Shown: positions 2 through 17,851 of the stretch, in pieces
Position numbering within the stretch: the stretch's first letter is position 1
Layout of the letters: each line of letters opens with the position of its first letter
Assembly (NCBI GenBank): GCA_944388965.1
Contig: CALXKL010000001.1
Span: 124,001 to 188,000 of the forward strand
Direction: 5' to 3'
Length of the DNA stretch: 64,000 nucleotides
Origin: an uncultured Spirochaetales bacterium
GTDB taxonomy: Bacteria > Spirochaetota > Spirochaetia > Sphaerochaetales > Sphaerochaetaceae
Made by a program: the position numbers and the translations under genes
Notes under the pieces: generated by a model
Told to the model about the DNA's origin: nothing
Database searches by the model: none
What the model saw: only the letters and a program-made list of their open reading frames with translations

Positions 2-433
2 ACGATGGTGGTGGTCGGGTCCGTCCTGTCGGCGATTCGCTGGCTCGTTCTTGGAAACGTTTACATAGGGTTCGCAGGGCTTCTTTTCACACAGTTCCTG
101 CACGGAGTGATGATCTGCACGATAAACATCGCGTTCATCGACTATTTCCGCGCCCTGACCAGAGATGAGGGATTCGGTACCGCGATAGGTCTGGCCGGAG
201 CGCTGAGCAGTCTGTGCACAATGGCCGGTTCCTGGCTGTTCGGCCTTGTCGGGGACGGATTCGGGTTGTCCAGCGCGTACAGGTGGCTTGGCCTGCTCGG
301 TCTGCTCTCTGTCGCCGCATTCCTCGTCGTGGACGTCATCGTCCGCCCGGCACCATCCCGATGCCGCATGACTCATGCATTTGCTTTTGAAAGTGCAAAT
401 ACAAGGAAATTCGAAAAGGAGGATTCGAAATGA
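2..433 (+). CDS. MFS transporter, C-terminal part (cut by window edge)
   Basis: The reading frame is open to the left edge, so only the last 143 or so residues are present. They contain three to four hydrophobic segments separated by short charged loops and end in a hydrophilic tail, which fits the C-terminal helices of a 12-helix major facilitator protein. The segment around HGVMICTINIAFIDYF resembles the LacY/nucleoside-proton symporter branch, but the substrate cannot be read from this part. Its stop codon overlaps the ATG of the next gene (ATGA), so it is probably co-transcribed with the sugar ABC importer that follows. The ribosome binding site of that gene lies inside this coding region. 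Confidence 0.75.
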   Translation, partial: TMVVVGSVLSAIRWLVLGNVYIGFAGLLFTQFLHGVMICTINIAFIDYFRALTRDEGFGTAIGLAGALSSLCTMAGSWLFGLVGDGFGLSSAYRWLGLLGLLSVAAFLVVDVIVRPAPSRCRMTHAFAFESANTRKFEKEDSK

Positions 434-1731
434 AGAAAGTTCTTCTCACTTCTCTCGTGATGCTTCTCTCGCTGTGCCTGTTCGCCGGCGGCAGTGGAGA
501 GAGCACGTCTTCCGGCGGATCTGCCGAGAATCCCGTCACGATCACGTTCATGCACGACTGGCCTGAATACCAGCAGCAGTTCGAGCAGATCGTAGCCGAC
601 TTCGAGGCGGCCAACCCGGATATCAAGGTCGAGACCACCGTCATCACATGGGACATCCTCACCAGGACGCTCCAGACATCCTTCGCCTCCGGCGATGCAT
701 ACGATGTCGCGGCATGCTGGCTCGACAGGGTGGGTGGATTCAACGCCCTCGGCGCCTGCTACGACCTCACGGATGCGATGATGGAGAACGATGGCGAATG
801 GGCAGACGAGTTCGTCGGTCCTTCGCTTGAGCTGGGAACCGTCAACGGCCATATCTATGGCGTACCGTTCCGCTCGACCTGTACGATCCTCGTCTACAAC
901 AAGACGATGATGGACGAGCACGGCTGGCAGGTTCCGACCACGCTCGAGGAGTTCGAGGCCCTCATGGAAGAGATCGTCAGCACGACCGACGGAATCACGC
1001 CGCTGATCACACCGGGCAATCCCCAGGCCTTCCAGATCGCATCCCTGACGAAGACGCTTGCGGAGCATGAGCTGTACAAGTCCGGCAAGCTTCTCGACGA
1101 GGAGTACCTCAGCGGAAGGATGAGCGATGTCGGCGACGAGTACGCGAAGGCCGCTGCAAAGCTCAGACAGTGGGCTCAGAAGGGCTACATCGGTGCCGAT
1201 TCCATGGCTCTTACCGGAACCGAGGCCACTGCCCAGTTCTTCACAGGCAAGGGCGTGTTCTTCTTCGCAAACAACAATGAGCTGTCCGCACTCCAGACGA
1301 ACGCTGCGGATGCAGGCATCGAGATCGCCTTCATGCCGTTCCCCGCACCGGAAGGAGTCCCCACACTGCTGTACAACTACGGTGTAGACGGATGGATGGT
1401 GTACTCCGGAACGAAGCATCCCGAAGAGGCGATCAGATTCCTGAAGTATCTCTCCAGCTACGATGTCCAGCAGAAGTTCGGAAACGAGACGCTGTCGGTC
1501 ATGGGCAACAGGAACTGCACATACGACAACGAGTATCTCAACCAGTTCGTCGAGATCTTCACATCCGGTGAATCGCACAGAATCAAGTTCGACTACAACC
1601 AGGGCAACCTCATCACCGACGAGGCCCTTGCGATCGGAGACTTCTTCGTCAATCCTGCAGCGACCCCGGAGGATCTTGGTCAGGCGATCGTGACACTCAA
1701 GGAGAACTGCATCAACGAGAATGCGGTCTGA
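430..1731 (+). CDS. Sugar ABC transporter substrate-binding protein (family 1)
   Basis: 433 residues. The first 19 or so form a signal peptide ending in LCLFA, followed by GGSGES, a start seen in many spirochaete binding proteins. The mature part has the usual extracellular solute-binding family 1 layout: an early beta strand (TITFMHDWPEY), AANPDIKVE, the VPFRSTCTILVYNK hinge strand and a C-terminal HPEEAIRFLKYL helix. It should capture an oligosaccharide or other sugar outside the membrane and deliver it to the two permeases downstream. No ATPase gene for this importer lies in the window, so a shared MsmK/UgpC-type ATPase elsewhere is likely. The start is supported by an AAAAGGAGG site 7 bases upstream. 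Confidence 0.92.
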   Translation: MKKVLLTSLVMLLSLCLFAGGSGESTSSGGSAENPVTITFMHDWPEYQQQFEQIVADFEAANPDIKVETTVITWDILTRTLQTSFASGDAYDVAACWLDRVGGFNALGACYDLTDAMMENDGEWADEFVGPSLELGTVNGHIYGVPFRSTCTILVYNKTMMDEHGWQVPTTLEEFEALMEEIVSTTDGITPLITPGNPQAFQIASLTKTLAEHELYKSGKLLDEEYLSGRMSDVGDEYAKAAAKLRQWAQKGYIGADSMALTGTEATAQFFTGKGVFFFANNNELSALQTNAADAGIEIAFMPFPAPEGVPTLLYNYGVDGWMVYSGTKHPEEAIRFLKYLSSYDVQQKFGNETLSVMGNRNCTYDNEYLNQFVEIFTSGESHRIKFDYNQGNLITDEALAIGDFFVNPAATPEDLGQAIVTLKENCINENAV

Positions 1732-1740
1732 TTCCACTTG

Positions 1741-1770
1741 CGTCCGGCTGCCGGAGGCGGCGGCCGGACG
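1741..1770 (+). other. Intergenic hairpin after the binding-protein gene
   Basis: An 8-bp GC-rich inverted repeat (CGTCCGGC / GCCGGACG) lies in the 59-base gap between the binding protein and the first permease. It has no T-run after it, so it is more likely an mRNA processing or stability hairpin than a full terminator. This is the usual way a binding protein is made in excess over its membrane partners. Confidence 0.55.
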
Positions 1771-1790
1771 ATCTTGAAAGGAGGTACATC

Positions 1791-2702
1791 ATGGCAGGTA
1801 GCATAACCAAGGTGGAACGCAACAGAAAGCTGTGGGGATACGTGTTTCTGATACCATCCCTGTTCTTTCTTGTCATGTTCATCCTGTATCCGCTGGTGAA
1901 CAGCATATTCATGAGCTTCACCAACTGGACAGGCTTCAACAACGATTCCTATTCATTCGTCGGCGCGAAGAACTATGTGGATCTGTTCACGAAGAACCCG
2001 GGCTTCTGGAACGCCATGGTGATAAACCTCGTCTTCGCCTTCGTCTCCACCGCGATCCAGACGGTTCTGGGATTCCTCCTGGCATTCTGCGTGTACTACA
2101 TGACAAGCGGATGGCAGAGGTTCTACAAGGTGGCGCTCTACATCCCGGTCATCCTGCCGGCGTCGGTCATAGCCGTCATGTGGCGCTTCATGCTCTCCCC
2201 GGATACAGGACTGGTGAACGTGATCCTCAGGACGATGGGTCTCGACAATCTGTGCAGAGCCTGGGTCGGTGACCCTTCTACTGCACTTGGGACCGTGATC
2301 GCCGTCAACACCTGGCAGTATGTCGGCTTCACCATGATCCTCTTCCTGATCGCGATGCTGAACATACCGACCGAGGTCATAGAGTCCGCACAGATGGACG
2401 GAGCCGGGAAGTTCAGACAGCTTCTCAGCTTCTTCATACCCCTGACGGCGAGTACGACGGAGACCAACATAATCCTGTCGATAACGGGCGGCATGAAGTC
2501 GTTCGCCCTATTCTATATGCTCACAGGCGGCGGCCCCGGCACTGCGACCACGGTCGTGTCCATGGTCATCTACAACACCGCCTTCGTCGACTTCAAGTTC
2601 TACAGGGCCCTTGCCATGGCGACCGTCCTGTTCGTGATAATCCTCGTCCTCGTCCTGATCTCGAGAAGGATCGGGCATGAAGCGGAGACGAACATCGAGT
2701 AG
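1791..2702 (+). CDS. Sugar ABC transporter permease (MalF/UgpA type)
   Basis: 303 residues with six predicted membrane helices, the first at about residues 17-40 (YVFLIPSLFFLVMFILYPLV). The cytoplasmic coupling loop EVIESAQMDGAGKFRQLLSFFIPL matches the EAA motif of binding-protein-dependent permeases. It pairs with the next gene to form the channel of a family-1 (CUT1) sugar importer. An AAAGGAGG site sits 8 bases before the ATG. The gap to the next permease is 11 bases, so the two are translated from one message. Confidence 0.92.
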   Translation: MAGSITKVERNRKLWGYVFLIPSLFFLVMFILYPLVNSIFMSFTNWTGFNNDSYSFVGAKNYVDLFTKNPGFWNAMVINLVFAFVSTAIQTVLGFLLAFCVYYMTSGWQRFYKVALYIPVILPASVIAVMWRFMLSPDTGLVNVILRTMGLDNLCRAWVGDPSTALGTVIAVNTWQYVGFTMILFLIAMLNIPTEVIESAQMDGAGKFRQLLSFFIPLTASTTETNIILSITGGMKSFALFYMLTGGGPGTATTVVSMVIYNTAFVDFKFYRALAMATVLFVIILVLVLISRRIGHEAETNIE

Positions 2703-2713
2703 GGGGCAATGCA

Positions 2714-3541
2714 ATGAAGAAAAGGCTTTCGATACAGAACATCCTGTCGCAGATACTGCTCGTATTCCTTGCAGTGATCGTCATCTATCCACTTCTTTTC
2801 GTGTTCATGACATCATTCAAGTCCAACTTTGATGTCATAACCCATCCATTCACGATAAACACCTTCGAACCCGACAACTACGTCCAGGCATGGGAGATAG
2901 GAAGAATCGGCAAGTATTTCGTGAACAGCGTGCTCATCACGTTCGTCACGCTTGCGATCCAGCTCGTCATCATAGTCCTGGCATCATATTCACTTGGAAA
3001 GCTGAAGCCCTGGGGTACGGGATTCCTGACGATCCTCTACCTGTCCGGCCTGTTCGTCACGAGCGAGATGATCACCGTGCCCAACTTCACCACGATGAGG
3101 AACTGGGGGATATCCGGGACGCGGCTCGCCCTCGTGCTTCCATATGTCGCCAACGGAATCGCAATGGCGACGTTCATCATGACAAACTACGTCAGACAGA
3201 TGCCGAAGGAGCTGGATGAAGCGGCGCTGATGGACGGCTGCGGCCTGTTCCAGAATCTGACACGCATCACCGTGCCTCTGATGACTCCTGTGCTCGCCAC
3301 CTGTCTCATCTTCAATTTCCAGGGCGTATGGAGCGAGTTCTACTGGGCTCTGATCCAGATAAGGGACGAGAACCTGAAGACTCTGCCGCTGGGTCTGATG
3401 AACTTCCAGTCGCAGTTCAACACCGATTATGGAATCCTGTGCGCAGGTCTAGCGATCTCCATAATCCCGGTGCTGCTGGTCTATCTGAAATGTTCGTCCC
3501 AGTTCATAGGTGGAATGACCGCAGGTGCGGTGAAGGGGTGA
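2714..3541 (+). CDS. Sugar ABC transporter permease (MalG/UgpE type)
   Basis: 275 residues, six predicted membrane helices, with the EAA loop at about residues 160-185 (ELDEAALMDGCGLFQNLTRI). Length and C-terminal features are typical of the MalG-side permease of CUT1 importers. It completes the membrane pore with the preceding permease. The following glycoside hydrolase gene starts only 3 bases downstream, which ties transport to intracellular cleavage of the imported glycan. Confidence 0.92.
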   Translation: MKKRLSIQNILSQILLVFLAVIVIYPLLFVFMTSFKSNFDVITHPFTINTFEPDNYVQAWEIGRIGKYFVNSVLITFVTLAIQLVIIVLASYSLGKLKPWGTGFLTILYLSGLFVTSEMITVPNFTTMRNWGISGTRLALVLPYVANGIAMATFIMTNYVRQMPKELDEAALMDGCGLFQNLTRITVPLMTPVLATCLIFNFQGVWSEFYWALIQIRDENLKTLPLGLMNFQSQFNTDYGILCAGLAISIIPVLLVYLKCSSQFIGGMTAGAVKG

Positions 3542-3544
3542 TCC

Positions 3545-5653
3545 ATGAGGAGAATCGAGAACGGCCGGCTGGCAATCGCATTCGACGAGGACGGTCGGGT
3601 ATGTGCAATATATGTGGAAGGTCGCAACTGCCTTGCCAGGCCGTGTCGCGGGTTCGCGCTGTCGATCGATGATGCGCTCGTCGATGGTGCAGATTTCACG
3701 TTCGACGGATTCTCGCAATCCGATGGCCTTCTGAGTCTGGGCTATACGTCACCTTCCTGCCATGTGGAGATGTCGTATCGCAAGGTCGGCCTGTCAATCG
3801 CTGCGAGTGCGCATGTCACGTTCCCCTCCCACTCGCAGGGCATGCTGAGATGGTTCGAGTTCATCTGGCCATCACTGTGCTTCGACTCGCCGGAGATGGA
3901 CGTGTTCCATGCTCCGGGTCAGGGTGCCTGCCATGAGCTGACATCTTTGAACATCAACTTCACACCGGGTTGCAGAGTCTCGGCCCTCGGCGCCTTCGAG
4001 ACTAGGGAGGACATGTTCAGCACCACGCCGGACAAGGGTGCCGGACTGCTGTGCATCGAGGCACAGGACGGTGCGTGCGTCGGGCTTGCTCCGTATGGTG
4101 AAGAGGAGAACTTCTTCCCGATGATCCACCTGGAGCATGATGGTCTGACGGTCATCCATCGCAATATGATAGTGGCGGACTCGTCCAGATTCCAGGAGAT
4201 CGGCACAGGGGAGCTGTTCATCCTGGGCTCCCGGTACCGCGCCGTCCTTTCGGCCTACCAGGACTTGATCTCGAACCACCTCTGCCTGGCTGCTCCAGGC
4301 TGCCCGCAGTGGTTTCGCCAGACCTCGCTTGTCGAAGTGCATTCCTCACACCTGGGCGGCTTCAGGGCCGGAATCGGAAAGCTGGGGTATTTGAAGAGCA
4401 TCGGAATCGATGTCGTCTATCTCATGCCCTGCTACAGCTATCGGAACAACATGAAGGACCACCGCTATGTCCATGGCTTCAGGGAGACCGGGTACATATA
4501 CAGCGTCCTGGACAACTACGAGGTCGATTCCATAGCAGGTGGAGAAGAGGGCCTCAGGGAGTTCATCGAAGCGGCCCACTCGGAAGGCATGCACGTGCTT
4601 TTGGACTTCATTCCGCAGGGCTCCCATCCGGAAGGAGTCCTCTTCAGGGAGCATCCAGAGTGGTTCTGCCGGGATGAGAATGGGGATTTCTTCCCATCCC
4701 ACGGCTGGAGGGCCACGTTGTCCCTAGACTGGGCGAATCCCGAAGTCGCACGGTATTTCATCGACATGGGGTTGCATTATGTGAAGAACTTCGACATAGA
4801 CGGCTTCAGAATCGATGCCCCGCACTGGAAGGAGCCCAACTTCGCAAAGGATCTTCCCTACAGGGCCAGCCATACCTGCTTCGGATCCATCAGGATGCTG
4901 AGGCGTCTTTTCGACGAGGCCCGTGCCATAAGGCCCGACATCGTCTTCATGGGCGAGGTGTGGGGTGTCGCATATGAGAGCTTCACCACATGTCAATGCG
5001 AATACAACATCCACTGGGCGCTGTGGAACACCGCGACCGGAGTCTTCTGCGGCAGGGACCTGCAGAAATGGCTGGACGAGTACCGCTACACGCAGCTTCC
5101 CGGATCGGAGAAGGTCGTGTTCCTCGAGACGCATGACACTCAGCTGCTGACTCCTGTGGCACAGCGCTACAGAGGGTCTCTGGTGAGCGACATGATTGCA
5201 TATGTGTATGCGTTCTGCGGGTTCATACCGATGGTCTGGTATGAGGAGATCGAACGGAATGCAGGGCTGGTGAAGCGCATATCGGAGCTCAGAGGACGTC
5301 TGGGGTATCCGTATTGGATGGATGTCGACTACGAGAACATCTCGAGCGGAAGCGACGATGTCTTCGTCGCGAGCCAGTGCGACGGAAGACGGATCGTCCT
5401 GGCGGATTTCGCCAGGAATATGGTGCATGCCGCACTATCGTTCGCACAGCTTCCCTCCTGGGTTGAACCCGACGGCCGCTATAGGCTGGTCGGCATCATG
5501 GATGGCAAGGTCTTCCAGCTTCACCGCAGAGTGGATGATGGAATCGAGACATACGAGGAGTTCAAGGGTTCGCAGCTTGATGGACTGGTTCTGGATATCT
5601 TCCCGTTCCAGCCGTATCTGCTCGAGATAGAACGGATAGGAGAGGACAAGTAG
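3545..5653 (+). CDS. GH13-like (alpha-amylase family) glycoside hydrolase
   Basis: 702 residues without a signal peptide, so it probably acts in the cytoplasm on sugars brought in by the importer just upstream. About 240 N-terminal residues look like a beta-rich domain. The catalytic barrel follows, with GH13 conserved regions in order: region I DFIPQGSH (from residue 354), region II GFRIDAPH with the nucleophile Asp424, region III FMGEVWG with the acid/base Glu471, and region IV ETHDTQ with His530-Asp531. Region I is unusual: the common Asn-His pair is replaced by Gln-Gly-Ser-His, and HPEWF follows, which recalls GlgE-type GH13 enzymes. The bond cleaved is not predictable. It could be a hydrolase, a phosphorylase or a transglycosylase. 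Confidence 0.87.
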   Translation: MRRIENGRLAIAFDEDGRVCAIYVEGRNCLARPCRGFALSIDDALVDGADFTFDGFSQSDGLLSLGYTSPSCHVEMSYRKVGLSIAASAHVTFPSHSQGMLRWFEFIWPSLCFDSPEMDVFHAPGQGACHELTSLNINFTPGCRVSALGAFETREDMFSTTPDKGAGLLCIEAQDGACVGLAPYGEEENFFPMIHLEHDGLTVIHRNMIVADSSRFQEIGTGELFILGSRYRAVLSAYQDLISNHLCLAAPGCPQWFRQTSLVEVHSSHLGGFRAGIGKLGYLKSIGIDVVYLMPCYSYRNNMKDHRYVHGFRETGYIYSVLDNYEVDSIAGGEEGLREFIEAAHSEGMHVLLDFIPQGSHPEGVLFREHPEWFCRDENGDFFPSHGWRATLSLDWANPEVARYFIDMGLHYVKNFDIDGFRIDAPHWKEPNFAKDLPYRASHTCFGSIRMLRRLFDEARAIRPDIVFMGEVWGVAYESFTTCQCEYNIHWALWNTATGVFCGRDLQKWLDEYRYTQLPGSEKVVFLETHDTQLLTPVAQRYRGSLVSDMIAYVYAFCGFIPMVWYEEIERNAGLVKRISELRGRLGYPYWMDVDYENISSGSDDVFVASQCDGRRIVLADFARNMVHAALSFAQLPSWVEPDGRYRLVGIMDGKVFQLHRRVDDGIETYEEFKGSQLDGLVLDIFPFQPYLLEIERIGEDK

Positions 5654-6085
5654 ATGGATTGTTTTGTTTCACAGGCGAATGTGAACAGGCGTTATGTCAT
5701 ACGCCTGGACAAGGATGACATGCTTCTGGAATCGATAGAGAAGGTCATCGAGGAGAAGGGGATCCGCAATGCGGTGGTCGTGTCCGGAATCGGGACTCTG
5801 AGCGATGCGAGGATCCATATGGTCACCACCACCGGCTATCCTGCGGTGGAGACGTATCCCGAGTGGAAGGACGACCCGATCGAGCTGTGTTCGATCGCCG
5901 GAATCATCGCAGACGGGAAGCCCCATCTCCATATGGTGTTCTCCGATTCGAAAGGCACATACAGCGGCCATGTCGAGCATGGCTGCAGGACGCTGTACCT
6001 TTGTGAAATCGTCATAGAGGACCTGGGGATCGATCTGGTCCGCAGAATCGACGAGAAGAACATTTCGGTTCTTCAGGAAAAGTGA
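5654..6085 (+). CDS. PPC/DUF296-domain protein
   Basis: 143 residues forming a single plant-and-prokaryote-conserved (PPC, DUF296) domain. The conserved parts are VVSGIGTLSDARI, the His-x-His of PHLHMVFSD (His91, His93) and SGHVEHGC (His106, His109), which in prokaryotic members sit in a trimer and may bind metal. There is no AT-hook, so DNA binding is not implied. The ATG follows the stop of the GH13 gene directly, with GAGAGGACAAG as a weak binding site. Its role in the sugar locus is unknown. Confidence 0.82.
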   Translation: MDCFVSQANVNRRYVIRLDKDDMLLESIEKVIEEKGIRNAVVVSGIGTLSDARIHMVTTTGYPAVETYPEWKDDPIELCSIAGIIADGKPHLHMVFSDSKGTYSGHVEHGCRTLYLCEIVIEDLGIDLVRRIDEKNISVLQEK

Positions 6086-6094
6086 GGTGATTTG

Positions 6095-7150
6095 ATGGTC
6101 TCTTTGAAAGACAAGTTCTTCGGATGTATCGCGGGGTGCCATATAGCATCCTCCATGGGTGCCGTGGTCGAGGGCATGAAGTGGCAGGACATAGAGGCCA
6201 GATACGGCTTCGTCGACGACCTTCTGCCATACGAGCACTACTGGAACGGGTGGAAGCGTGAAGCCGGCACCACGGAGGATGGCGTCGAGAGACAGAAGCT
6301 GATGATCACGGCCATCGCGCGAAAAGGCGACAGGGTCAATGCCGAGGACATCAGGGCCGTCTGGCTCACGGATATCCGGCACAAGGTCGGCGGACTCATA
6401 TCCGAGCCCTTCGAGGATACTCTTCTGGCGATTGCCAAGACGGGCATTCCCGCAACCGACCTCGGCCGATACTGCGACTATGCCGGACTCAACAGCTTCG
6501 CAAGGGCATGCCATCCGATCGGCCTGATCAACGCAGGAGATGTCAAGGGTGCGATCGAGGACGTCCTGCAGTGCGGCCAGCTGTATCAGACGCCCAACAG
6601 CAGAGGGCTGAAATGGGCCTGTGTCACAGGTGTGGCGATAGCCGAGGCGACGAAGAGGGATGCCACGGTCGACAGCGTCATCGGGGCCATATTCGACAAC
6701 TGCGACAAGGACCTGGTCGTCAGCGAGATCGACAGGATGCTCAAGTACACCAGCGACTGCTCCACGATCCAGGAGATGCGTTCAAAACTGGATGGAATAT
6801 ACTGCGGCGAAGGCATGCCGTATCCGTTCAGCTATGCGAACGAGGTCGTCACGAAGGGCGTGTGCATCTTCTCGATGGTCAAGGGCGACACGAAGGATGC
6901 GATTCTTGCAGGTGTCAATATGGGCAGGGACACCGACTGTGTCGCGGCGGTGGCCGCTGGAATATCCGGTGCACTCACCGGAGGCTCCTCGATACCGGCT
7001 TCCTGGATCGAGAAGGTCGACCATGCGACATCCGTCAATCCCTACACCAATTCCAAACGGACGCTGCAGGAGAGCGCGGATGTATTGTATGACGCATACG
7101 TCAGACGACTTGACAGGCTCGAGTCGTATGCAGGTGCGATGAGGTACTGA
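6095..7150 (+). CDS. ADP-ribosylglycohydrolase-family protein
   Basis: 351 residues. The fold is indicated by the N-terminal FFGCIAGCHIASSMGAVVEG, by TTEDG (Glu61, Asp62) in place of the usual TDDT, and by GRDTDCVAAVAAGISGALTG (Asp279, Asp281) matching the GGDTDT metal-binding motif near the C-terminus. Canonical members cleave ADP-ribose from proteins or nucleic acids using two Mg ions. Versions within sugar operons may act on other N- or O-glycosidic substrates. The ATG at 6095 is chosen over an adjacent TTG because GAGGTGA lies 4 bases upstream. It is co-transcribed with the GH13 and PPC genes. Confidence 0.8.
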   Translation: MVSLKDKFFGCIAGCHIASSMGAVVEGMKWQDIEARYGFVDDLLPYEHYWNGWKREAGTTEDGVERQKLMITAIARKGDRVNAEDIRAVWLTDIRHKVGGLISEPFEDTLLAIAKTGIPATDLGRYCDYAGLNSFARACHPIGLINAGDVKGAIEDVLQCGQLYQTPNSRGLKWACVTGVAIAEATKRDATVDSVIGAIFDNCDKDLVVSEIDRMLKYTSDCSTIQEMRSKLDGIYCGEGMPYPFSYANEVVTKGVCIFSMVKGDTKDAILAGVNMGRDTDCVAAVAAGISGALTGGSSIPASWIEKVDHATSVNPYTNSKRTLQESADVLYDAYVRRLDRLESYAGAMRY

Positions 7151-7194: not shown

Positions 7195-8991
7195 ATGAAC
7201 TATGATACGGTCCTGTGCGTGGATCTGCGCAGTTTCGACAACACCATCGACGACTATGGTGTGGATGCATATTTCTCCCATGTAGGGTTCGTCCCTACCG
7301 AGATATGCTTCCTCAATTTCCAGGTGATGTTCCTGTTCGGCTTCGATGGTGTGGACGACACCGTCCTGGATCCGATATGCACCGGGCAGAACGGAACCCC
7401 GTGCACCCGGCAGTGGACCGTCCGACAGCTTGCCGGACTCGTCTCCTGTCTGCATGGACACGGCGTCAGGTGCTATCTGGGGATCCTGGCGAACACGACA
7501 AGCCCCGTATGGAGGAACACCCGCACCTCATGGGAACATGAGGAGGTGCTCCAGAGGACACGTGGAGACAGGCTTCTGTGGGGCAGCTCGATAAACGTCC
7601 TGAAGCATATGGCTGACGGGACGCTCTTCGAGGATGTGTTCATCGACAGGCTTGTGACGGCGATTCTGGCCCTGGGGATGGACGGCTATGTCGCCGGTGA
7701 TGGAATGCTCGGCCTGCGCGGACCCAGGGAGACGCTGGCCGACACCGATTATTCTTCCGACATGGTCGACCAGTTCCGCTGCTGGTCGGCGCTGAACGTT
7801 CCGGACCTGCCGACCTATGATGAAAGGGCCGACTATATCCAGAAGTACATGAAGGACGAATGGGTCGGGTTCTGGGTCTGGAGATGGACGGTCCATGCAA
7901 GGAAGCTTTCATCCGCTCTCAGGTCGCATGGGCTGGGATTCCAGGCGATCGATGCATGGAGCCGCAATCCGATAGAGGCGCGTTCATCCTTCGGCATAGA
8001 CTACAGGGCCCTGTACGAAGCCGGGCTCGAGGGGCTTTTCGTGCAGGCCCGCGAGACCAACAAGTGGCGCAAGCACAGGGAAGGCGAGTACGTCCGGGAG
8101 GAGAACAGCGTCTTCACATTCCTTTCGCACAAGGCTTACGAGCCGAGACTCAGGTACTATTGGGCCCAGGCGACCGTGAACATCCCGGAGTTCTGGAATT
8201 CCATGCTGGATCTTCCGAATGTCATACAGCGGGAGAGCCACGCATATCTGTGGAGCCATTGTCTTCGGGATGGGGCCTGGAACCGCTGTATCGACGGCAT
8301 CTGCGTCATCTGGGCGAACGACCTGGGACGGGATGACTGGAAGCGGATCCGGGACAACTGGGATGCGGCCTGCTCGATGAGCGACCGGTTCTCAAGGCCT
8401 CTCGGACTCACTCTGCTTTTCGATGATGTTGAGGTCTCCGGAGGCGATGTCATGGAGGCCTCACGTTTCGCCGCTCTGCTGGACAACGGCGTGCTGGTCC
8501 ATTCCGCCGTGCCCGCACGTGAGGGCCTGTCACGTGACGATGTGCGCGCCTATGTCACGTTCTCGCGCCAGACCTATGGTTCATGCACACCGAAGGTCAG
8601 GGACGTCACGTTTCTGGTGGAAGACGGGTGTATCGAATACAGGGGCGTCAGGTATTCCTTCCATGAGGGTGTAGAGCTCATGAAGAGGACAGGCGGAATC
8701 AGGTCCACCAGCGGACGCGTATTCGGATTCTCATGCGCCAGGGACGAGATCGTCCTGAGCCTGGAGAACCCCGGCAATCTCTTCTATGAGAAGGTGTACT
8801 TCGCAATCGACCGGAGAATCGGCTCCGTCAGGGCCCTTCCTCCGAGACAGTGGTATTCGATGCCACATTCCATCATGGATGGAAGCGCAGCCGTCTCTCT
8901 TCCTCCTGATGCCGCATTGCAGCTTGAAGTGCAGCTGGAAGGGACGGACAGCGTCCCCCTGGCTTTCAATATCCTCGAACTGGGAGTGTGA
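7195..8991 (+). CDS. Unrecognised large protein, paralogue A (possible glycosidase-like)
   Basis: 598 residues, no signal peptide, family not recognised. It is clearly homologous along its length to the protein at 10987-12636. Shared blocks include GQNGTPC, LANTTSPVW, YVAGDGM.GLRGPR (Asp169), DAWSR.P (Asp253), KWRKHREGEY, PEFWN and DG.C.IW.NDL. An N-terminal alternating strand/helix region rich in conserved Asp, Glu, Trp and Tyr, followed by a segment like LLFDDVEVSGGDVMEASRF, resembles the barrel plus glutaminase-like domains of GH42-type galactosidases. That is an inference from pattern only. ATG 7195 is preceded by GGGAGG with 7 bases spacing; an upstream in-frame GTG at 7162 lacks such a site. 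Confidence 0.8.
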   Translation: MNYDTVLCVDLRSFDNTIDDYGVDAYFSHVGFVPTEICFLNFQVMFLFGFDGVDDTVLDPICTGQNGTPCTRQWTVRQLAGLVSCLHGHGVRCYLGILANTTSPVWRNTRTSWEHEEVLQRTRGDRLLWGSSINVLKHMADGTLFEDVFIDRLVTAILALGMDGYVAGDGMLGLRGPRETLADTDYSSDMVDQFRCWSALNVPDLPTYDERADYIQKYMKDEWVGFWVWRWTVHARKLSSALRSHGLGFQAIDAWSRNPIEARSSFGIDYRALYEAGLEGLFVQARETNKWRKHREGEYVREENSVFTFLSHKAYEPRLRYYWAQATVNIPEFWNSMLDLPNVIQRESHAYLWSHCLRDGAWNRCIDGICVIWANDLGRDDWKRIRDNWDAACSMSDRFSRPLGLTLLFDDVEVSGGDVMEASRFAALLDNGVLVHSAVPAREGLSRDDVRAYVTFSRQTYGSCTPKVRDVTFLVEDGCIEYRGVRYSFHEGVELMKRTGGIRSTSGRVFGFSCARDEIVLSLENPGNLFYEKVYFAIDRRIGSVRALPPRQWYSMPHSIMDGSAAVSLPPDAALQLEVQLEGTDSVPLAFNILELGV

Positions 8992-8994
8992 GAG

Positions 8995-9789
8995 ATGAGT
9001 GCATATGAATTCATGGAGGTGGCTCCAGGCATATTCCAGATCTCCGAGTCCGGACTTGCCATGCAGTATCTGGTGACTGGCCGTGACAGGGCACTTCTCG
9101 TCGATACGGGAACCGGCATAGGCGATCTCAGAGGCGAGGTGGAGAGGAGGATATCCGTCCCATATGATGTCGTCATCACGCATGTCCATCGCGACCATTT
9201 CGGTGGCGCCGGTGCCTTCGATCGCGTGCATGTGCCCAAAGGCGATCTCGATGCAATCTCCGGCATAGATGCCGAAGGACGGCGCGGCTATGTCGTCAGC
9301 ATGGTATCGAGCGGCAGCGTTTCTCCAGATGTGCTTGAGAAGGCGGTGATCAGGCAGTGGAATGACGATCCGCAACGATTCATCCCGGTCGATGCCGGTC
9401 ATGTCTTCGACCTTGGTGACAGACGCTTCGAGGTCATTCCCATGCCTGGCCATACCGCAGGCGAAATCTGCCTGCTGGACAGGGCTGGAGATGTGCTTAT
9501 CAGCGGGGATTCGGCCAATCCGATCATGCTGCTGAAGATGAAGGGGGATGACCGCATTGAGGTGTGCAGACGGTGGCACGATGCCCTGGGTGGCCTGCTG
9601 CGGCTGCTGGACGACGATACTGTCATATGCGGCGGTCATGGACTTCTCGACATCGATGTGTTCGAAAGGCTGTATGCCATTGCAGGAGAATATCTTGAAG
9701 GAAGGAGGAATGCGGTGGTGAAGAAGGTCCACCTTTATACCGGCCGCTTCCTGGATGATGGAGATATCGTCATAGGCCTTGATGCCTAG
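8995..9789 (+). CDS. Metallo-beta-lactamase-fold hydrolase
   Basis: 264 residues with all the metal ligands of the MBL superfamily: HVHRDH (His63, His65, Asp67, His68), PGHTAGE (His153), GDSA (Asp172) and CGGHG (His215). It is cytoplasmic, with no signal peptide. Glyoxalase-II-like or lactonase-like hydrolysis would fit a sugar-breakdown locus, but the family is too broad to name the substrate. It starts 3 bases after the preceding gene, so translation is coupled, and is followed 18 bases later by the alcohol dehydrogenase. Confidence 0.88.
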   Translation: MSAYEFMEVAPGIFQISESGLAMQYLVTGRDRALLVDTGTGIGDLRGEVERRISVPYDVVITHVHRDHFGGAGAFDRVHVPKGDLDAISGIDAEGRRGYVVSMVSSGSVSPDVLEKAVIRQWNDDPQRFIPVDAGHVFDLGDRRFEVIPMPGHTAGEICLLDRAGDVLISGDSANPIMLLKMKGDDRIEVCRRWHDALGGLLRLLDDDTVICGGHGLLDIDVFERLYAIAGEYLEGRRNAVVKKVHLYTGRFLDDGDIVIGLDA

Positions 9790-9807
9790 ACAAGGAGGTT
9801 TGATGTC

Positions 9808-10983
9808 ATGTTGAGTCAGTATTATGCCCCTACGAAGGTGGTGTTCGGAAGGGGAGCGGAGGACGAGGTCTCGAATCAGCTGCGCCAGTTCGGCGCCGAC
9901 AGCGTCCTGTTGGTATATGGCGGGCATTCTGCGCTAAAGTCCGGTCTTCTGGCGAAGGTGAGGGACAATCTCTCGGCTGCCGGGATAAGGTTCATGGAGC
10001 TGGGTGGTGTACAGCCCAATCCCCGCATCAGCCTTGCGAGAAAGGGCATCGAGATATGTCGGGAGAACGGAATCGGCTTCATCCTCGCAGTCGGAGGGGG
10101 GTCCGTGATCGATACCGCAAAGGCCATCGGCTACGGCCTGTTCAACGGCGGCGACCCCTGGGACTTCTACTGTGGCAGGCGCACTCCTGAAGGATCGGCC
10201 CCTGTCGGCGTCATACTAACGATGGCTGCCGCAGGAAGCGAGATGAGCGACAGCTCCGTCCTGACGAACGAGGAGGGCGGGCTGAAGAGGGGATGCAACA
10301 GCGACCACTGCAGGGTGAAGTTCGCCCTGCTGGATCCGGAGCTGACGATCTCCGTGCCCGACTACCAGACTTCGTGCGCCACCGTCGACATCATGATGCA
10401 TACCCTTGAGAGATACTTCCATGCAGGAAAGGGCCTCTCGTTCACCGACAGTCTCTCCTTCACACTTGTCAGACAGGCGATCGAGAACGGCAGGATACTG
10501 CATGCCGATCCGACGGACTATGATGCCAGGGCGAACATGATGTGGGCCTCAAGCCTTTCCCATAACGGTCTCATGGCCCTTGGAAACCCCAGCAAGGGCG
10601 ACTGGGCTTGTCATCAGCTCGAGCATGAGCTGTCCGGCATGTTCGACATCGCACACGGTGCAGGACTCGCCATCGTATTCCCGGCGTGGGCGGATTACGT
10701 ATGCGACACGGATCCTTCCAGATTCGCACAGCTTGGAAAAGCCGTGTTCGACCTGGAATGCGACGATGTGGAGAAGGCCGCCCGCATGACGATCGATGCG
10801 CTTCGCAGCTTCTTCGAGGAGCTCGGCATGCCAACCACTCTCCGCCAGGCAGGCATAGAGCTTGACGAGGCCCATCTGAGCGAGCTTCTGGACAAGGCCA
10901 CGTTCAATGGCAGGAGGACGCTTGGCAACTTCCGTGTGCTCGAGAGAGCGGACATGGAAGCGATCTACAGGCGGTGCATGTAG
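9808..10983 (+). CDS. Iron-containing alcohol dehydrogenase (butanol dehydrogenase type)
   Basis: 391 residues of the group III, Fe-dependent alcohol dehydrogenase family, YqhD/BDH branch. The nucleotide-binding loop GGGSVIDTAKAI is at about residues 96-107. The metal ligands Asp194, His198, His269 and His283 show the same spacing as in that branch. It should reduce an aldehyde with NAD(P)H, or oxidise a secondary alcohol. In this locus it could act on an aldehyde released from the imported sugar or serve as an electron sink. The ATG at 9808 has AGGAGG 9 bases upstream. Confidence 0.92.
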   Translation: MLSQYYAPTKVVFGRGAEDEVSNQLRQFGADSVLLVYGGHSALKSGLLAKVRDNLSAAGIRFMELGGVQPNPRISLARKGIEICRENGIGFILAVGGGSVIDTAKAIGYGLFNGGDPWDFYCGRRTPEGSAPVGVILTMAAAGSEMSDSSVLTNEEGGLKRGCNSDHCRVKFALLDPELTISVPDYQTSCATVDIMMHTLERYFHAGKGLSFTDSLSFTLVRQAIENGRILHADPTDYDARANMMWASSLSHNGLMALGNPSKGDWACHQLEHELSGMFDIAHGAGLAIVFPAWADYVCDTDPSRFAQLGKAVFDLECDDVEKAARMTIDALRSFFEELGMPTTLRQAGIELDEAHLSELLDKATFNGRRTLGNFRVLERADMEAIYRRCM

Positions 10984-10986
10984 GTG

Positions 10987-12636
10987 ATGGAGAAGGTTGT
11001 CTGCGTCGATCTGCGCCGTTTCGATCCGGAAAGCCGCGACCATGGAGTGGGAGCCTATCTCGAAAGGCTCTCCTTCATGCCGTCGGCACTGTGCTTTCTG
11101 AACTTCCATGTCATGTTCGTGCTCGAGTACGAAGGCATCTGCGACAAGGAGCTCGACCCGATTTCGGTCGGGCAGAACGGTACGCCATGTCCTGACCGCT
11201 GGACAGTCAGGGCCTTCCATTCACTCGTCCAGACGATCAGGGGCATGGGGATCGACGTGTATTTCGGCCTGCTTGCCAACACGACCAGCCCCGTATGGCA
11301 CAACACGGCATATGAATGGACTCATCCCGAGCTGCTGCAGACATCGGTCGGCGGCGAGAGGGTGTGGGGGAATGCGGTGAACGTCCTCAAGCGCTTCGAC
11401 GACGGCCGATATCTGGACGAGGTGATTGCACGGAATCTGGGACACATCTTCCGGGATTTCGGCTTCGACGCCTATGTGGCGGGAGACGGTATGTTCGGTC
11501 TGCGTGGTCCGCGAGATACGCTCCGTGAAACCGACTTCTCACGCGACATGGTCGAGCAGTTCTCGCAGCATTCCTCGATCGAAGTTGACGGCAGGCTGGA
11601 CTACGAGGGAAGACGACGGTTCATATCGGAAGGATTCTACGACGAGTGGGTCGATTTCTGGTGCTGGCGCTGGGCCTGTCATGTAGGCAGGATCCATGAC
11701 GCCATCGCCGTGTACGGAGCTTCGTTCATGGCCCTTGATGCCTGGTCCCGCTCTCCGGAGGAATGTCGTCGGCTGTTCGGCATCGATTACAGGATGCTAT
11801 GCGACAAAGGGCTCGAGAAGGTCTTCGTCCGCTGTGGCGAATCGAGCAAGTGGAGAAAGCACAGGGAAGGGGAATATGCCAGGCAGGACTGCTCCATGTA
11901 CACCATCATGGCCCATGCGTTGTATGAGCCCCGCCTGTCATATCTGTGGGTGCAGCCGACTGCGAACGTGCCCGAATTCTGGAATACCGTCCAGGACCTG
12001 CCGCAGGTCTCCAGGCGCGAGCTGTCGGCCTATTTCGCCCTCCACGTCATGTCGGACGAGGACGGATGCTGGAAGCAGGCGCTGGATGGCGTATGCATCA
12101 TCTGGGGCAATGACCTGTCGCATGAGGACTGGACCTGGCTGGCCTCCGGATGGGAGAACGTCATGGAATGGAACGCCTCTTTCCTTAAGCCGTTCGGTCC
12201 TGTACTGCTGGTTCCTGATTCCACGTCTTCGAAGCCTGGCTCCCATATGCTCTTCGCCAGGCTGTACGATGCAGGTCTGCCGATATCCTGTGCCATGCAC
12301 ATGGATCAGGCAAAGGCCGGACATGTCTTCATCACGTTCGATGAAGATGTGGCAACCCAGATGCCCGGCGTGTTCCATTTCGATGGAGAGCGCTTCCATC
12401 TGGACGGCTGTCATATGTCGTTCCTGCAGGGCGTCGAGAAGATCCTGCAGCGGTGCGGCATATCGCATGCGGCATGCAGATGGCATGCCTTCATGGCATC
12501 GCAATCGCTCCTATGCATGTGCATAGAGAACGCCGAAAGCCTCGAGCCGGTCCGCCAGAGCCTGACCATCCAAGGAAAGAGCACCTGTGTACCTGTTCCT
12601 CCCGATGGCGTCGCCTGTGCACAGATGGCGATCTGA
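10987..12636 (+). CDS. Unrecognised large protein, paralogue B (possible glycosidase-like)
   Basis: 549 residues, paralogue of the protein at 7195-8991 and separated from it by the MBL and alcohol dehydrogenase genes. The conserved acidic positions are kept (Asp167 in GDGMFGLRGPR, Asp251 in ALDAWSR, PEFWN), so both copies may be active on related substrates. It is shorter at the C-terminus, lacking about 50 residues of the last beta-rich part. The ATG at 10987 lies 3 bases after the stop of the dehydrogenase; a GTG at 10984 is the alternative start. No signal peptide. This is the last gene of the locus, and a strong hairpin follows it. Confidence 0.78.
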   Translation: MEKVVCVDLRRFDPESRDHGVGAYLERLSFMPSALCFLNFHVMFVLEYEGICDKELDPISVGQNGTPCPDRWTVRAFHSLVQTIRGMGIDVYFGLLANTTSPVWHNTAYEWTHPELLQTSVGGERVWGNAVNVLKRFDDGRYLDEVIARNLGHIFRDFGFDAYVAGDGMFGLRGPRDTLRETDFSRDMVEQFSQHSSIEVDGRLDYEGRRRFISEGFYDEWVDFWCWRWACHVGRIHDAIAVYGASFMALDAWSRSPEECRRLFGIDYRMLCDKGLEKVFVRCGESSKWRKHREGEYARQDCSMYTIMAHALYEPRLSYLWVQPTANVPEFWNTVQDLPQVSRRELSAYFALHVMSDEDGCWKQALDGVCIIWGNDLSHEDWTWLASGWENVMEWNASFLKPFGPVLLVPDSTSSKPGSHMLFARLYDAGLPISCAMHMDQAKAGHVFITFDEDVATQMPGVFHFDGERFHLDGCHMSFLQGVEKILQRCGISHAACRWHAFMASQSLLCMCIENAESLEPVRQSLTIQGKSTCVPVPPDGVACAQMAI

Positions 12637-12681
12637 CATGGTTTCATTATCTGGTTTCCTCCAGATTCTGTTTTCTCTTTT

Positions 12682-12715
12682 GCACCAGGGAGGTTGCTGC
12701 TTGCCTCCCTGGTGC
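12682..12715 (+). terminator. Terminator-like hairpin ending the carbohydrate locus
   Basis: A perfect 12-bp inverted repeat (GCACCAGGGAGG / CCTCCCTGGTGC) with a 10-base loop lies 45 bases after the last gene. The T-run after it is weak (CTTGTTG). It separates the carbohydrate locus from the ABC exporter. Confidence 0.7.
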
Positions 12716-16277: not shown

Positions 16278-16307
16278 GGACATGCCTCTTGGAAAAGGAA
16301 CATGTCC
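16278..16307. terminator. Hairpin between convergent genes
   Basis: GGACATG and CATGTCC form a 7-bp stem, extended inside by CCT/AGG with a small bulge, in the 87-base gap between the exporter and era, which converge here. It probably ends transcription from both sides. T-runs are short, so efficiency is uncertain. Confidence 0.45.
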
Positions 16308-16336
16308 TTGTAACATCGAATAGTAAGTATGGCTTA

Positions 16337-17251
16337 TTAGGTGTTCTGACGGAAGAGACGGTCCAGTGTGGCCTGGTTGTTCCTCCACTTGTTCTGCGCC
16401 TTGACCCGCAGGTCGAGAGTGAGCTTCATGCCGGGGAAGATCCGTTTGATCTCGCCAAAGCTCTGCTTGCGGATGGTCCTGATGTTCTCTCCTCCCTTGC
16501 CGACTATTATCCCCTTCTGGCCTTCGCGCTCGGTGACTATGAACGCCCTGATCCACACCGAAGACGAGTCCTGGTCGTATTCGATGTCGGAGACCTCGAC
16601 ATACACGACATGCGGAAGTTCGTCGCTGAGCAGGTTGATCGTCTTCTCGCGTATGATCTCGCTGATGCGGAACTCGAGGTTCTGGTCGGTATAGCTGTCG
16701 CTCGGGTACAGCATCTGCCCATACGGGGCGACCTTGAACAGCTCTATCAGTATCTCGTCGACCCCGTCGTCCTTGAGACCGCTGGCTGTGAGTATGACGG
16801 CCTTTGGAAGCCTTTCTTCCACGTATCGCCGTGCAGTCTCGACCTCCTCCTGAGTGAGGATGTCGGACTTGTTGATCACTGCGATGACCGGCACCCTGAC
16901 CTTCGTCAGTATCTCCACTATTGCGTCCTCTTCGCTTCTGGCCTCGCGCTTTGCGTCTATCAGGTAGAGGACCGCGTCGCTGTCGTCAAGGCTCGAGACC
17001 GTTATCTCCTGCATCCTGCGGTTGATCTCGCGGCCCCCGAGATGGTAGCCGGGGGTGTCGGTGAAGATGAGCTGGCCACGCTGGTCCGTGTATATTCCGC
17101 GTATTGCGTTGCGGGTTGTCTGTGGGGTGGATGCGGTGATGCTGACCTTCATCTCGCAGATCGTGTTCACCAGGGTCGATTTGCCTACGCTGGGCCTTCC
17201 GATGAGCGATACGGTCGCGCATCTGACAAGTCTGTCGTCTTCTCTTTCCAT
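16337..17251 (-). CDS. era: GTPase Era (ribosome assembly)
   Basis: 304 residues. GTPase motifs are in order: G1 GRPSVGKST, switch region TPQTTRNAI, G3 DTPGYH and G4 NKSD. A C-terminal KH domain carries GQKGIIVGKGGENIRTIRK. Era binds the 3' end of 16S rRNA and helps mature the 30S subunit. The start is the ATG giving MEREDDRLVR. Longer in-frame extensions run into clpP on the other strand and are rejected. No Shine-Dalgarno site precedes the ATG. Instead a perfect TATAAT lies 9 bases upstream, suggesting a nearly leaderless message. Divergent from clpP with only 24 bases between. Confidence 0.95.
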   Translation of the reverse strand: MEREDDRLVRCATVSLIGRPSVGKSTLVNTICEMKVSITASTPQTTRNAIRGIYTDQRGQLIFTDTPGYHLGGREINRRMQEITVSSLDDSDAVLYLIDAKREARSEEDAIVEILTKVRVPVIAVINKSDILTQEEVETARRYVEERLPKAVILTASGLKDDGVDEILIELFKVAPYGQMLYPSDSYTDQNLEFRISEIIREKTINLLSDELPHVVYVEVSDIEYDQDSSSVWIRAFIVTEREGQKGIIVGKGGENIRTIRKQSFGEIKRIFPGMKLTLDLRVKAQNKWRNNQATLDRLFRQNT

Positions 17252-17275
17252 GGGTTTCCAATTATACTCGCTTAC
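17252..17275. promoter_or_regulatory. Bidirectional era/clpP promoter core
   Basis: The 24 bases between the two divergent start codons contain AATTATACTC. Read on the minus strand it gives TATAAT 9 bases before the era ATG. Read on the plus strand it gives TATACT 7 bases before the clpP ATG. The two -10 boxes overlap. Recognisable -35 boxes are weak on both sides, and neither gene has a Shine-Dalgarno site. Confidence 0.6.
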
Positions 17276-17851
17276 ATGAGTGAAGAAAAGAAGAACGCAG
17301 AGCAGCCGAGCCCTGCTCTTGGCGAGAAGCTGATGAAGACGCGATCCATCATGCTCACCGGAGAGATCACGAAGGAGAGCGCCGACCAGGTGATCAGGAA
17401 TCTCCTGGTGATGGATAGCGAAGGAAACGACCCGATCACCATCTACATCAACAGCCCTGGAGGCGATGTGGATGGAGGATTCGCGATATACGACATGATC
17501 CGGTTCATCTCGTCTCCCGTCAGGACGGTTGGAATCGGTCTGGTTGCGTCGGCTGCCGTGATCGTGCTGCTTGCAGCCGAGAAGGAGCATCGCTACGGCT
17601 TTGCCAACTCCACATATCTCATCCACCAGCCCATGACGGAGATGCGTGGCGTGGCTGCAGACATCGAGATCCATGCACAGAACATGGAGCATTGCCGCCA
17701 GATGACGGACAGCATCATAGCCCAGGCATGTGGAAGGAGCATCGAGGAGGTCCACCGTGATACGGAGAGGGACCACTGGATATACAGCCAGGGAGCCGTC
17801 GAATACGGCCTGATAAGCCGGGTGATAACCACCAAGGACGAGCTCAAGTAG
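17276..17851 (+). CDS. clpP: ClpP-family serine protease subunit
   Basis: 191 residues. The triad is Ser92 (LVASAAV), His117 (LIHQPM) and Asp166 (DTERDHW), with the same spacing (25 and 49) as in E. coli ClpP. The surrounding sequence differs from the core ClpP consensus (ASM and MIHQP regions), so this may be a second, divergent ClpP rather than the main one. It should assemble into a barrel and degrade proteins fed by a Clp ATPase, for which there is no gene nearby. ATG 17276 is chosen because the fold begins just after it (SIMLTGEI) and a TATACT box sits 7 bases upstream. Confidence 0.9.
   Translation: MSEEKKNAEQPSPALGEKLMKTRSIMLTGEITKESADQVIRNLLVMDSEGNDPITIYINSPGGDVDGGFAIYDMIRFISSPVRTVGIGLVASAAVIVLLAAEKEHRYGFANSTYLIHQPMTEMRGVAADIEIHAQNMEHCRQMTDSIIAQACGRSIEEVHRDTERDHWIYSQGAVEYGLISRVITTKDELK

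Follow-up and report, generated by a model that had tools for sequence, protein, structure and literature searches.

Proteins A and B are two diverged paralogues placed in a sugar-import operon in the window (the whole stretch of 64,000 nucleotides that was analysed), and the first half of their predicted barrel is GH13-like in profile comparisons. As judged from their sequences, they are probably uncharacterised sugar-cutting enzymes whose active site has been rebuilt.

Paralogous proteins A and B and their operon

Both open reading frames are present as originally described and each has a plausible start: that of A is ATG 7195, preceded by gggagg, and that of B is either GTG 10984 or ATG 10987, directly after the stop of the alcohol dehydrogenase gene. 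The numbering of B in the original prediction ran from ATG 10987 (549 residues), while Asp168 and Asp252 of B are counted here from GTG 10984. By BLASTP the two proteins are identical at 222 of 530 positions (42%; 432 bits, E 5e-150), with an identity by region of A of 50% (residues 1-180), 47% (180-400), 31% (400-505), and 25% (505-598). All of the sequence blocks to which attention had been drawn (GQNGTPC, LANTTSPVW, AGDGM.GLRGPR, DAWSR, KWRKHREGEY, and PEFWN) are invariant between A and B in the alignment. The aligned codons differ at 242, 201, and 326 first, second, and third positions, respectively, and a different codon is used at 111 of the 234 residues identical between A and B. This excess at the third position and the 111 identical residues with a different codon indicate that A and B are real coding genes that have long been separated. 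On inspection the N-termini of A and B have no evident signal peptide, and the two proteins should therefore act on imported material.

The operon has 11 genes in the order MFS, solute-binding protein, two permeases, GH13, PCC, ADP-ribosylglycohydrolase-like, A, metallo-beta-lactamase-fold hydrolase (MBL), iron-containing alcohol dehydrogenase (ADH), and B (Table 1), and the gaps between genes from the solute-binding protein to B are 0 to about 60 bp. The MFS gene is upstream of the window edge, and its stop codon and the start codon of the solute-binding protein gene, at 430, overlap. We were able to confirm that an importer (430-3541) and a GH13 enzyme (3545-5653) are in the same locus as A and B, as had been noted previously; an ABC ATPase gene was not found within the operon.

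Table 1. Coordinates of operon genes, signals and candidate residues of A and B, as positions in the window.
Feature	Position	Strand	Basis
LacI/GalR-type palindrome TGGAAACGTTTACA, second exact copy, inside MFS gene	52..65	+	pattern match
Extracellular solute-binding protein (ABC importer)	430..1731	+	PF01547 E 2e-35
Two ABC sugar permeases (1791-2702, 2714-3541)	1791..3541	+	PF00528
GH13-type enzyme, 702 aa, canonical motifs GFRID, GEVW, THD	3545..5653	+	PF00128 E 2e-20
PCC-domain protein	5654..6085	+	PF03479 E 1e-23
ADP-ribosylglycohydrolase-like protein	6092..7150	+	PF03747 E 3e-25; PDB 1t5j, DraG
Protein A, 598 aa: predicted N-terminal barrel (about 1-400) and less conserved middle/C-terminal parts	7195..8991	+	ORF; 42% identity to B; GH13 profile alignment of barrel N-half
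Asn100 of A (GILANTTSPVW), aligned with the Asn of CSR-I DxxxNH	7492..7494	+	profile alignments
Asp169 of A (GMDGYVAGDGM), proposed nucleophile, one residue off the GH13 beta4 nucleophile column	7699..7701	+	alignments
Asp253 of A (FQAIDAW), predicted beta5 end, acid/base candidate	7951..7953	+	forced alignment only
Glu287 of A (FVQARE), predicted beta6 end, alternative acid/base candidate	8053..8055	+	conserved in B
Metallo-beta-lactamase-fold hydrolase	8995..9789	+	PF00753 E 1e-15
Iron-containing alcohol dehydrogenase	9808..10983	+	PF00465 E 4e-43
Protein B, 550 aa (549 if started at ATG 10987), paralogous to A, C-terminus shorter	10984..12636	+	ORF; alignment
Asp168 of B, equivalent to Asp169 of A	11485..11487	+	alignment
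Asp252 of B, equivalent to Asp253 of A	11737..11739	+	alignment
Terminator-like hairpin, 12 bp past the B stop; operon end	12649..12666	+	consensus scan

The earlier statement that A and B match no known family held against Pfam, NCBIfam, PHROGs, and PDB sequences. Neither protein had a match in the first three up to E 1, nor in Pfam up to E 10 (including the GH13 family model, PF00128), and there was no convincing match to any solved chain in the PDB. Relatives of A and B other than each other were not found in their own genome, in 61 relatives, in 139 genomes of the order, in samples of 393 genomes of the phylum and 395 of the class, or among plasmids, phages, and viral contigs. The GTDB contigs also gave no relative when scanned with a few exact patterns of 7-8 residues, which excludes close relatives only, as such scans would miss distant ones, and the profile search stayed within the genomes of the phylum. 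One weak match (G459/L005, E 0.0022 over 52 positions) was discarded, as its frame reads radical-SAM-like and has 0 of the A/B blocks. Within the order of this bacterium the rarity of A and B is real; beyond the order it is unproven. A search of the literature gave nothing useful on an operon of this kind.

Profile comparisons with GH13 and other barrel families

Using hhalign, we compared a two-row A/B profile, which is weak as it holds two sequences only, with small alignments of barrel families built from fetched loci. Against a 7-sequence GH13 alignment the A/B profile reached a score of 44.2, with 100 columns aligned (E 9e-5 as a single comparison), or 42.3 when the operon's own GH13 was removed from the set. 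No score above 25.9 came from 100 column shuffles, and reversal of the profile gave 20.0. The N-terminal half of the barrel alone scored 40.7 against GH13 (200 shuffles, at most 21.9). With a 19-sequence GH13 set the scores were 37.6 for A/B, 36.2 for the N-terminal half (null at most 24.1), and 39.0 without the operon GH13. As a single sequence, the operon GH13 enzyme did not match A/B (score 17.2). A carbohydrate-active role, as originally proposed, is supported by this GH13-barrel score, which is above all controls, and by the operon context.

The part of A and B that aligns with GH13 comprises barrel residues ~26-165, and its register is typical of that family (clan GH-H): YFSHVGF falls on yLkxLGv, FDGVDDTVLDPI on YdvxDyyxIDp, and GMDGY on xIDGF. 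Within it are a GYxxxDYxxIDP-like element (FGFDGVDDTVLDPI, aligned with gYdvxDyyxIDp) and a LixxaHxxGikVilDxVxNHTS-like element (LVSCLHGHGVRCYLGILANTTSP, aligned with LixaaHxrGikVilDxVxNHTS). In contrast, the DxxxNH and GFRxD motifs are altered, the C-terminal parts differ from those of GH13, and strands 5-8 could not be aligned, the C-terminal half of the barrel giving no signal against GH13 (score 12.5, null up to 24). Because invariant residues of the catalytic region are not conserved and there is no signal in strands 5-8, A and B are not members of GH13 as it is defined. The GH13 enzyme of the operon, which shares that operon with A and B and was one of the aligned GH13 sequences, differs from them in having the full motif set and a PF00128 match.

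The control families were GH66, GHL10, GH36, GH31, and GH2. GH31 scored 25.5 against A/B, with its own shuffles reaching 27.9; GH66, as an 8-sequence set, scored 17.9, with shuffles reaching 23.4; and GHL10 (22.6), GH36 (22.2), and GH2 (17.9) were at shuffle level. As a yardstick, the accepted barrel families GH31, GH36, GH66, and GHL10 reach 51-71 when compared with that 19-sequence GH13 set, and GH2, of another clan, reaches 21. To judge by these scores, A and B lie outside GH13, probably a little further from it than GH31, GH36, GH66, and GHL10 are.

Two AlphaFold2 models were produced from the two-sequence alignment, with pLDDT values of 34.9 and 35.2. At this low confidence (pLDDT ~35) the predicted secondary structure alternates strands and helices in an order that fits a barrel, with strands in A near residues 6-10, 36-42, 92-98, and 163-167. 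The full-length A model placed GH66 first (5axh by Foldseek, E 0.04; 3vmn by VIA-align, Z 6.0, rmsd 4.0, 135 aligned), with GH13 also high, and the second model did not clearly repeat this GH66/GH13 ranking. Z 6 is in the usual range for unrelated pairs, and at such pLDDT values we treat the matches of the models as leads only. The GH66 ranking bears on the idea that the two proteins belong to a different clan of barrel glycosidases, either as enzymes of the GH66 dextranase/CITase type or as GH42-like ones that combine a barrel with an alpha/beta domain and a beta-sandwich, in which case their score against GH13 would stem from a general likeness among barrels. In common with the GH66 dextranases and cycloisomaltooligosaccharide glucanotransferases A and B have an Asp at the end of predicted beta4, and a GH66 gene is also found in the Enterococcus operon described below. 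However, we consider this idea improbable, as the A model that favors it has a pLDDT of 35, its Z is within the range usual for unrelated pairs, and in the profile comparisons GH66, GHL10, GH36, GH31, and GH2 were all at chance whereas GH13 was above all shuffles. The GH42-like layout consists of a barrel, a glutaminase-like trimerisation domain, and a beta-sandwich, with a catalytic Glu pair. The suggestion of a "glutaminase-like" second domain in A and B is not supported, as there is no sequence match to one and that part of the models is unreliable.

Candidate catalytic residues and proposed role

The GH13 motifs are CSR-I DxxxNH on beta3, CSR-II GxRxD on beta4, CSR-III Glu on beta5, and CSR-IV HD on beta7. 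At the position of CSR-I, A reads GILANT and B reads GLLANT, so that the Asn is kept, the Asp is replaced by Gly, and the His by Thr. The CSR-II sequence GFRxD is also absent, the corresponding sequence being GYVAGD, with one residue extra before Asp169 and the Arg missing, and the local alignment with GH13 ends four residues ahead of Asp169. The catalytic triad of GH13 is an Asp on beta4, a Glu on beta5, and an Asp on beta7 (PMC11239784). Asp253 of A falls on the column of the acid/base Glu only in a forced alignment, which is suggestive at most; the C-terminal half by itself gives no significant alignment (score 12.5). Asp169 and Asp253, the conserved residues that had been singled out, each lie where a predicted strand ends (strand 4 and strand 5, respectively).

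Our best explanation, which we regard as evenly poised between right and wrong, places A and B in an undescribed family nearest GH13, as cytoplasmic glycoside hydrolases or transglycosidases with a (beta/alpha)8 barrel that work with the operon GH13 on an imported oligosaccharide and carry out retaining alpha cleavage with Asp169 (A) or Asp168 (B) as nucleophile. We infer catalysis, the catalytic residues, the alpha linkage, and the substrate class. The oligosaccharide would be brought in by the ABC importer, and perhaps also by the MFS protein, and A, B, and the canonical GH13 of the operon would then act on it in the cytoplasm. The nucleophile, at the end of beta4, would be paired with an acid/base that may be Asp253/Asp252 on beta5 or Glu287/Glu286 on beta6. 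The ADH, MBL, PCC, and ADP-ribosylglycohydrolase-like genes point to additional steps that act on a product or an aglycone. As to why there are two paralogues, our guess is that they serve two linkages or two chain positions; the two-step or two-substrate role put forward originally is likewise a guess, to which the data are neutral.

A parallel layout is found in an operon on an Enterococcus plasmid (NZ_CP023514.1, L051/L052), which has LacI, solute-binding protein, two permease, GH66, and alpha-glucosidase genes and is an importer operon of the GH66/GH13 kind. By analogy, this operon illustrates how such a system may be built, from an oligosaccharide importer and two complementary alpha-acting enzymes.

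Alternatively, A and B could be derived from GH13 and be non-catalytic, as sugar sensors or scaffolds that bind substrate and assist the operon GH13. Non-catalytic GH13-like heavy chains such as rBAT exist, rBAT was itself one of the relatives obtained for the operon GH13 enzyme, and the changes at GH13-invariant residues of the catalytic region are found in both A and B. We find this alternative rather unlikely, however, as A and B, which are 42% identical, have strictly kept many of their acidic, Trp, and Arg residues, and catalytic-looking Asp and Glu residues are placed at the ends of predicted strands. Less probable still, the two proteins could be barrel enzymes with no action on glycosidic bonds, for instance isomerases, lyases, or aldolases that work on a product of the pathway. 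The redox and metallohydrolase genes among their neighbors (ADH, MBL, and also the PCC protein) imply a pathway that does more than hydrolysis, but the only sequence signal obtained for A and B is to GH13 glycoside hydrolases and the matched region has elements specific to GH13. For the lyase function raised in the original prediction, specifically, we found no evidence.

Returning to A and B as glycoside hydrolases, a bolder proposal, which we put forward tentatively and lean somewhat against, is that they found a new family within the barrel superfamily, on its GH13 side. Such a family would have a rebuilt site (an Asp169 nucleophile, a non-canonical acid/base, no Asp or His of CSR-I and no Arg of CSR-II), and would act intracellularly on an unusual imported oligosaccharide that also needs redox, MBL, and ADP-ribosylglycohydrolase-like partners. 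If active, A and B would represent a new enzyme family that is related to the best-studied starch enzymes and lacks residues thought essential in them, would test how far an alpha-retaining active site can change, and would point to the carbohydrate substrate of a rare, apparently accessory operon.

Regulation and surroundings of the operon

A gene for a LacI-type regulator (L008:10029-11063) is located upstream of the window edge, beside the MFS gene. The first copy of the palindrome TGGAAACGTTTACA is at L008:11167-11180, at the promoter/start of the MFS gene. Two matches of this type in 20 kb were obtained in 0 of 200 shuffles, with the pattern itself having been derived from the first copy.

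Among solved structures, the best relative of the operon GH13 enzyme, over 280-425, is AmyB of Thermotoga neapolitana (4gkl), and nothing in Pfam or the plasmids matched the first ~250 residues of the operon enzyme. A search at E 1e-25 gave no second genome of the order with this operon enzyme, which suggests that the operon genes are accessory and were possibly acquired. For most of them GC3 is somewhat lower (0.63-0.81) than for the flanking ABC exporter genes (0.80-0.81), which lends weak support to this.

Several other features of the region were observed. After the terminator-like hairpin behind B is a perfect 12-bp inverted repeat with a 10-nt loop (12682-12715). Upstream of the operon, at a distance of about 10 kb, is an aldehyde ferredoxin oxidoreductase-like gene (L008:31-1590); a class I lysyl-tRNA synthetase gene also lies upstream and, together with a gene for an outer-membrane efflux protein, suggests a spirochaete as host. 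Within the window, the 520-residue open reading frame at 16289-17848 has a ClpP domain only at residues 346-515, so that the frame either carries a long extension or has been given the wrong start.
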